From Syntrophorhabdaceae bacterium (GTDB lineage: Bacteria > Desulfobacterota > Syntrophorhabdia > Syntrophorhabdales > Syntrophorhabdaceae), in contig DASXUJ010000008.1 in the NCBI GenBank assembly GCA_036504895.1, positions 1 to 64,000 on the forward strand: a DNA stretch of 64,000 nucleotides, read 5' to 3'. The position numbers were made by a program, and so were the translations under genes. Of the stretch, positions 47,986 through 49,853 are shown piece after piece; within the stretch, counting starts at the first letter, position 1; each line of letters starts with the position of its first letter. The notes under the pieces were generated by a model. That model had not been told where the DNA came from. It was given only the letters and a program-made list of their open reading frames with translations, and ran no database searches.

Positions 47986-48109
47986 TTTTGTAAGCTATCC
48001 TCAAATAAAGAGATTTCCTAAAAAGTAACATAAAAGGGCCCTTATTTCAAGGAGAATGAGGGCGCGAATGGCCGTGGGGAGGTAACCCCTCGGTCACAGC
48101 CAAAATCCT

Positions 48110-48300
48110 TTTTGCCGCAGATAAAGGCGGATAAAACCGGATGGAGACAGATCGAAAGAATGACTGTGATTTGCCCGGCCGACAGTGCCGGGCAAATACT
48201 CTCGGCCCTCCGGGCTGGAGAGTGTCCAACCGGCACTGTCGCCGGTTGGACGGAATATTGCTTTTGTCCGCCCTTATCCGGTTTTATCTGCGGCGAAAAA
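48110..48300. repeat. Long inverted repeat enclosing three hairpins
   Basis: Outer arms: GCCGCAGATAAA...AAAACCGGAT from about 48114 and its complement ATCCGGTTTTATCTGCGGC ending at 48294. Inside: hairpin 1, TTTGCCCGG (48170-48178) with CCGGGCAAA (48188-48196); hairpin 2, ACTCTC (48198-48203) with GAGAGT (48218-48223) and an inner GCCC/GGGC; hairpin 3, GTCCAACCGG (48224-48233) with CCGGTTGGAC (48242-48251). Loop 1 contains CGACAGTG and loop 3 is CACTGTCG, exact complements. Confidence 0.85.
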
Positions 48301-48419
48301 ACGTTTGCCCTGAACGGACTCTCTGCCGGGTCAGACCCTTCCGCCCCGCCCCCGGCGGGCTTTCCCTCTCCCTGCGCCTCTCTCGCAAGCCTTTGTCTTT
48401 ATTGAAAGGAAAGAAAAAG

Positions 48420-48536
48420 GGGAATCAAAAAAGAGTTGCATTATTTTCTTGTTTATATTAGTATTCCACTTAAGCCATTCGGAAACCTTTTAGTTATCCA
48501 CATATGTTGAAAATATGTTGAAAATGATGTACACTA
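48420..48536. other. Probable oriC segment upstream of dnaA
   Basis: An AT-rich stretch immediately before dnaA with a perfect DnaA box TTATCCACA at 48494-48502 and two adjacent copies of TATGTTGAAAA (48503-48524). Transcription diverges here: ileS leaves to the left and dnaA to the right. Confidence 0.65.
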
Positions 48537-49853
48537 ATGGATGATATTATCTCCCAGATAAAACCTAAGATTGCGGGCATAATCAGCGAGGATAGCTATA
48601 GAACGTGGATTGAGCCCATACAATTTTCGGATTACAGGGACGATAAATGTTATGTTTCGGTCCCCAACACCTTCTTCCGTGACTGGATCGTAGAGAATTT
48701 CGAGCCCATCCTCGTGAGCCTGATCAAAGATGTAACCAAAACGGACACGAAGATAGAATATGTCCTGAAGAAGGATACAAAGCCCGAAGAGGCGCGGGGC
48801 GTGGTGGTCAAAAAGCCACCCAAATATAATATCTTTAACCCCCGCTATACTTTCGAGAACTTTGTCGTGGGTGCGAGCAACCAGTTCGCGAACGCGGCCT
48901 GCCTCGCGGTGGCCACGAACCCGGGTAAGACTTACAATCCCCTCTTCATTTATGGGGGAGTGGGTCTCGGGAAAACCCACCTCCTGAACGCGATCGGAAA
49001 TTTCCTGCTCACCCACAGCAACATCGGGCCCGAGAGGATCTGTTATATTACGGCGGAGGTTTTTACCAACGAGCTTATTAATTCGCTCCGATATGAAAAG
49101 ATGGAAGATTTCAGAAACAGGTTCAGGAGAATGGATATCCTCCTCATAGACGACATACAGTTTATTGCGGGAAAAGAGCGGACCCAGGCGGAATTTTTCC
49201 ATACCTTCAACGCCCTCTATGACACGATGAAACAGATCGTGGTAACGAGCGATAAATTTCCCCGGGATATCGAGAATTTCGAGGAGAGGCTCCGGTCCCG
49301 GTTCGAGTGGGGTCTCATCGCGGACATCCAGTCCCTCGATCTGGAGACAAAGGTGGCAATCCTCAATAAAAAGGCGGAGTATGAAAATGTAGACCTTCCC
49401 CTCGACGTCTCCTTTTTCATCGCGTCGAATGTGGATGACAACGTGCGCTCCCTCGAAGGCTCCCTTACCCGCATCGTCGCCTTTTCTTCTCTCAAGGGGA
49501 CACCCATCACCATAGAGCTCGCAAAGGACGTGATGGGCCATCTCATAAAGGAAAAGAAAAAGGAGATTACCATCGACCTCATCATCGAGCAGGTGGCCTC
49601 TTATTTTTCCATCAAGGTATCGGAGCTGAAATCGGAGAGGCGCATCAGATCTCTCATGGTGCCGCGCCAGATCGCGGTTTATCTCTCGAGGAAGCTTACG
49701 GATTCATCCCTGGTAAGCATTGGTGAAAAGTTTGGAGGGAAGGATCACGCAACTGTCCTCCACTCCATAAGAAAAATAGAGGGGGAAATAAAAATTAAAA
49801 AGGAGTTGAAAAACACTGTGGAAAATCTGGAATCGAGGATTAAGCTCACATGA
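48537..49853 (+). CDS. dnaA: Chromosomal replication initiator DnaA
   Basis: A 438-residue AAA+ initiator. Domain I at about 1-80, linker, YTFENFVVGASNQFA opening domain III, Walker A IYGGVGLGKTHLLN (about 140-153), Walker B MDILLIDDIQFIAGK, and domain IV with the DNA-binding signature KFGGKDHATVLHSIRKIE. ATG at 48537 lies just after the DnaA box region; the ribosome binding site is weak, so a different start codon nearby cannot be excluded, but the N-terminal sequence fits the family. It is first gene of the rightward replication/housekeeping run. Confidence 0.95.
   Translation: MDDIISQIKPKIAGIISEDSYRTWIEPIQFSDYRDDKCYVSVPNTFFRDWIVENFEPILVSLIKDVTKTDTKIEYVLKKDTKPEEARGVVVKKPPKYNIFNPRYTFENFVVGASNQFANAACLAVATNPGKTYNPLFIYGGVGLGKTHLLNAIGNFLLTHSNIGPERICYITAEVFTNELINSLRYEKMEDFRNRFRRMDILLIDDIQFIAGKERTQAEFFHTFNALYDTMKQIVVTSDKFPRDIENFEERLRSRFEWGLIADIQSLDLETKVAILNKKAEYENVDLPLDVSFFIASNVDDNVRSLEGSLTRIVAFSSLKGTPITIELAKDVMGHLIKEKKKEITIDLIIEQVASYFSIKVSELKSERRIRSLMVPRQIAVYLSRKLTDSSLVSIGEKFGGKDHATVLHSIRKIEGEIKIKKELKNTVENLESRIKLT

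Follow-up and report, generated by a model that had tools for sequence, protein, structure and literature searches.

IS66-family insertion sequences have 8-bp repeats and ends that begin GTAAGCG (PMC11946415), and ISDge4, from the ISBst12 group of this family, has GTAACTGCTCAGCA/GTGACTACTCAGCA as its tips together with an 8-bp duplication (PMC12898284). Bacterial MITEs are short, gene-less elements with terminal inverted repeats, target duplications and many intergenic copies. The hairpin element described here, which lies upstream of dnaA in a Syntrophorhabdaceae genome, resembles both. With IS66-family insertion sequences, such as ISDge4 and an IS66/DruA element from a genome of the same family (G009), it shares the tip GTAAnnnCTCAG and an 8-bp target duplication, but it has no transposase gene, and the likeness is limited to the tip and terminal region, the interior being unrelated. 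It has all the MITE properties listed above, yet differs from MITEs by a conserved three-hairpin core and by arms with a 10-bp period, and it is more than an insertion sequence that has simply lost its interior. No parent element was found in its own genome.

Structure of the element upstream of dnaA

The window, a 64,000-nt stretch of contig DASXUJ010000008.1, does contain in its ileS–dnaA gap what a first-pass annotation had described: a pair of long inverted arms around three GC-rich hairpins that abut one another, two of whose loops are exact complements. That annotation placed the arms and hairpins correctly, but its limits of 48110–48300 were too narrow for the whole unit, which spans 48082–48323 and comprises the following features:

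48082–48323, + strand: whole dispersed element, a MITE-like copy, from alignment of 14–17 genomic copies
48082–48113, + strand: left terminal region, with tip GTAACCCCTCGGTC, then CAAAATCC-TTTTT; consensus GTAAGYCCTCAGTYTC from aligned copy tips
48109–48141, + strand: left arm, repeating with a 10-bp period as CAGATAA nnn CGGATAA nnn CGGATGG, from inverted-repeat search and alignment
48169–48197, + strand: hairpin 1 (H1), loop with a conserved GAC, from folding and pair counts
48198–48223, + strand: hairpin 2 (H2), ACTCTC-GGCCC...GGGC-GAGAGT, from folding and pair counts
48224–48251, + strand: hairpin 3 (H3), loop with a conserved GTC, from folding and pair counts
48267–48299, + strand: right arm, from inverted-repeat search
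48300–48323, + strand: right terminal region, degenerate in the window copy; consensus ...AACTGAAACTGAGGACTTAC

The two 33-nt arms are 82% complementary and enclose all three hairpins, which follow one another without a spacer. The loop strings CGACAGTG (48180–48187) and CACTGTCG (48234–48241) are exact complements over 8 bp. Folded as RNA, the feature reaches a minimum free energy of −120.6 kcal/mol, compared with −80.4 ± 4.5 for shuffled sequences (z = −8.96), and folding as DNA gives a similar departure from shuffles (z = −9.0). The distance from the hairpin feature to dnaA (48537) agrees with that first annotated; measured from the end of the whole element, the gap is 214 bp.

Genomic copies and the origin of replication

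A search of the own genome revealed about 17 copies (16 besides the window copy) with identities of 74–100% and lengths of ~240–258 bp (about 245 bp), the window copy being 84% identical to the consensus over 48082–48314. The parts are ordered as left terminal region, arm (CGGATAA every 10 bp), H1, H2, H3, arm and right terminal region. In full copies, GTAAG[C/T]CCTCAGT opens the element and its complement closes it. The two tips of the consensus form an inverted pair, reading GTAAG[C/T]CCTCAGT[C/T]TC at either end, and the terminal inverted repeats of the element are GTAAGYCCTCAGT...ACTGAGGRCTTAC, as in a MITE. All own-genome copies are apparently intergenic, with some predicted ORF starts falling within copies and no ORF seen to be clearly interrupted by one. 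The family is thus multi-copy, dispersed and short.

These copies bear directly on a structural role at the origin or in dnaA control, whether as a cruciform, a regulatory RNA or a pair of kissing loops. Such a role would fit the place of the element upstream of dnaA and its strong predicted fold, but the same element occurs at 16 other sites. In G001, of the same genus, ileS and dnaA are adjacent, the gap is shorter and the element is absent; it is likewise absent from the dnaA upstream regions, the only regions compared, of 13 named relatives (Syntrophorhabdaceae and neighbours), so that its position beside dnaA is not conserved among relatives. What is conserved in G001 is roughly 110 bp immediately preceding dnaA, outside the element, including a DnaA-box-like TTATCCACA at 48494–48502. 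No Rfam family matched, the best score inside the element being 20.5 bits against a gathering threshold of 58, and the loop complementarity is private to the window copy (see below). A structure serving the origin or dnaA is therefore highly improbable and largely refuted, so that one spurious candidate for an origin structure can be dropped. The dnaA leader conserved in relatives (window 48430–48537) carries TTATCCACA followed by two ATGTTGAAAAT repeats.

Target duplications and a probable IS66-type mobiliser

With element ends taken from the copy alignment, the flanks of 15 copies were compared. Four copies, three from the own genome and one from a sister genus, are bordered by flush 8-bp target duplications matching at 7/8 to 8/8 positions: L016 (CAAGTATC, 8/8), L005 and L011 (7/8 each), and L029 in G018, another genus (ACAATTCA, 8/8; tips GTATCCCTTCAGT and GTATTACCTCAGT). 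None of 210 control cross-pairs of flanks reached 7/8, and the signal appears at a width of 8 only. The element has moved by transposition, with the target-site duplication typical of MITEs, and the first-pass suggestion of a miniature mobile element is borne out by its dispersed copies, ends and 8-bp duplications. For the 11 of 15 copies in which no duplication was found, decay or imprecise ends must be invoked. In the window copy itself only 2/8 flank positions match, so that no duplication is detectable, and the right tip is degenerate; this copy is thus probably old.

A hairpin-rich, intergenic, multi-copy element might instead be of REP/REPIN type, moved by a RAYT (Y1 HUH) transposase acting on single-stranded DNA hairpins, and the own genome holds seven Y1_Tnp genes. 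Flush-ended 8-bp target duplications are not expected from Y1 enzymes and argue against this reading. The seven RAYT-like PF01797 loci (L021–L027) were rejected as a source, since in a consensus search at E<1 none of these own-genome RAYT genes has a copy of the element on its flanks. A length of ~245 bp with terminal repeats of ~70 bp is also not REP-like. REPINs, too, are miniature mobile elements, built of inverted halves that form hairpins (PMC3116915), but the window element differs from them in its target duplications, the absence of a RAYT gene beside its copies and its much greater length. We consider movement by RAYT improbable.

The ends point to an IS66-type mobiliser. The tip GTAATCCCTCAGTTTTC is borne by an IS66-family element of a sister genome, and G002, of the same genus, contains an IS66 element with the ends GTAACTATTCAGCA. 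In G009, a 2340-bp element (L226, G009:C149, 3049–5388) carries an IS66 transposase gene together with a DruA-domain ORF between inverted ends GTAATCCCTCAGTTTTCTTC that are identical at 20/20 positions. It has 12/14 tip bases in common with the window family; its ends were placed by GTAA and self-complementarity alone, and 8/10 of the following bases then match. The G009 element itself lacks a clear target duplication, and its transposase frame contains a stop. Its second gene is the DruA (Druantia) domain ORF, and a similar DruA–IS66 pair occurs at G029:C105. The window family combines a 5′-GTAA tip with an 8-bp duplication, the published signature of the IS66 family; given in addition the G009 tip match, a transposase of IS66 type is the most likely mobiliser of the MITE-like element.

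Neither an IS66 transposase (PF03050), TnpB (PF05717) nor DruA was found in the own 138-contig draft assembly. A search of the own genome with the tip pattern returned the known copies and chance-level matches (47/38 compared with 45/36 in the control). An autonomous partner with the same ends, which is usual for a MITE though not strictly defining, has its only candidate in G009. We infer mobilisation in trans by an IS66 element that was lost or left unassembled. An IS66-family DDE transposase would recognise the terminal inverted repeats, first the tip GTAAnnCCTCAGT and next, possibly, the arms and their repeats of 10-bp period, and would join the element to an 8-bp staggered cut, giving the 8-bp target duplications; the window copy would be a tolerated insertion in the ileS–dnaA gap. 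Copy number, ends, duplications, absence from the orthologous site and the tip match to IS66-family elements are direct observations; the transposase used and the reason for keeping the hairpin core are inferred. The feature is probably a decayed, non-autonomous MITE-like copy of ~245 bp, moved in trans by an IS66-family transposase with 8-bp duplications and tolerated between genes. The ends and target duplications thereby name a plausible mobiliser.

Loop complementarity in a near-palindromic core

The first-pass annotation had suggested a kissing interaction between loops 1 and 3 and had itself named covariation of the loops as the check; the interaction does not survive comparison across copies. 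The longest complement between the two loops reaches 10 nt in the window copy, stem bases included, and 3–5 nt in the 15 other copies. Averaged over all 16, window copy included, it is 3.8, compared with 3.4 for cross-pairs, and covariation does not maintain the complementarity. Nearly all copies do retain the GAC of loop 1 and the GTC of loop 3. In its inner part, H1 is similar to H3 read as the reverse complement (CCGG, GAC, CCGG), and for several copies the core covariance model finds a match on the opposite strand as well. The core is near-palindromic, with the arms, and H1 and H3, as rough mirror images about a self-complementary H2, and because of this the two loops resemble each other's complement. 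For the perfect match in the window copy, the simplest cause would be conversion between H1 and H3 or template switching.

The stems mostly stay paired. Across copies, 93% of cells are paired, a level reached by 0/500 shuffles. Double changes occur in 9 cells (4/500 shuffles) and in 4 pairs (134/500) among copies that are related to one another, so that the paired stems and the modest excess of double changes are suggestive only.

Gene-bearing relatives of the hairpin core

The core covariance model identified copies in G018 and G019. Under stricter filters, a phylum-wide search of 395 genomes placed the core in the own genome and G019 only; either the exact core is narrow in distribution, or the model is too specific for divergent relatives.

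In G016, G018, G019 and G036, arms and hairpins surround a PF13366 gene. The G019 locus L171/L207 (G019:C54, about 117.1–118.7 kb) has hairpin units in tandem with 10-bp-period arms, and one unit encloses a GxxExxY gene, which lies between H2 and H3; the encoded protein matches TIGR04256 (E = 1.6e-44) and the PD-(D/E)XK family PF13366 (E = 2.7e-43). Inverted matching flanks surround the GxxExxY gene at L191, L171/L207, L193, L196, L197 and L212, and were not found at about half of the GxxExxY loci tested. The folded loci L191, L171 and L193 share the order arm-H1-H2-gene-H3-arm even where arm sequences differ, and at L191 the inner H3, GGTAGTGTCACC, is identical to the consensus of the window family. 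The GxxExxY element L193 (G019:C54, about 85 kb) has quite different arms (CTCTGCG/CGCAGAG repeats), which suggests an exchange of arms around a retained hairpin frame.

These GxxExxY (TIGR04256/PF13366) elements of sister genera resemble the window element in their iterated arms, H1 with its GAC loop, H2, H3 with its GTC loop, and the order of these parts. They differ in that the window version has no gene and IS66-type GTAAnnnCTCAG ends were not found beside the gene-bearing copies checked. The window copy looks like an empty form of a structured element that has apparently not been described before. Our literature search returned no paper on these repeats, nor on GxxExxY within a mobile element; by the literature searched, the family is a new MITE-like one whose structured core is unusual and which is linked to GxxExxY genes. 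That link ties a small nuclease-like family without known role to a defined hairpin frame, giving a handle on what carries those genes.

From sequence comparison, the core may have begun as the functional unit of a separate, GxxExxY-carrying element family with its own mobility or homing, the IS66-type ends being a later addition that drives its spread in this lineage only. Arms and hairpins common to the PF13366-gene copies of four genomes, the lack of GTAAnnnCTCAG ends at those checked and the tandem units in G019 are in its favour, but the ends and the core stand together in copies from two genera (own genome and G018). This separate origin is possible, though we hold it only tentatively; it concerns where the core came from and is compatible with IS66 mobilisation of the window copy. 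More speculatively, the family could represent a structured mobile class whose full form carries the GxxExxY PD-(D/E)XK nuclease between H2 and H3, the structure being kept as the substrate of that nuclease or a partner, and the window copy would be an empty form hitch-hiking on IS66-type ends; we regard this as rather doubtful.

The own genome also contains a related hairpin element at L019 (G000:C53 10787–13916, positions 1380–2850), with a gene-less copy adjoining. There, a Phd/PIN toxin–antitoxin pair apparently lies between the hairpins and the right arm.
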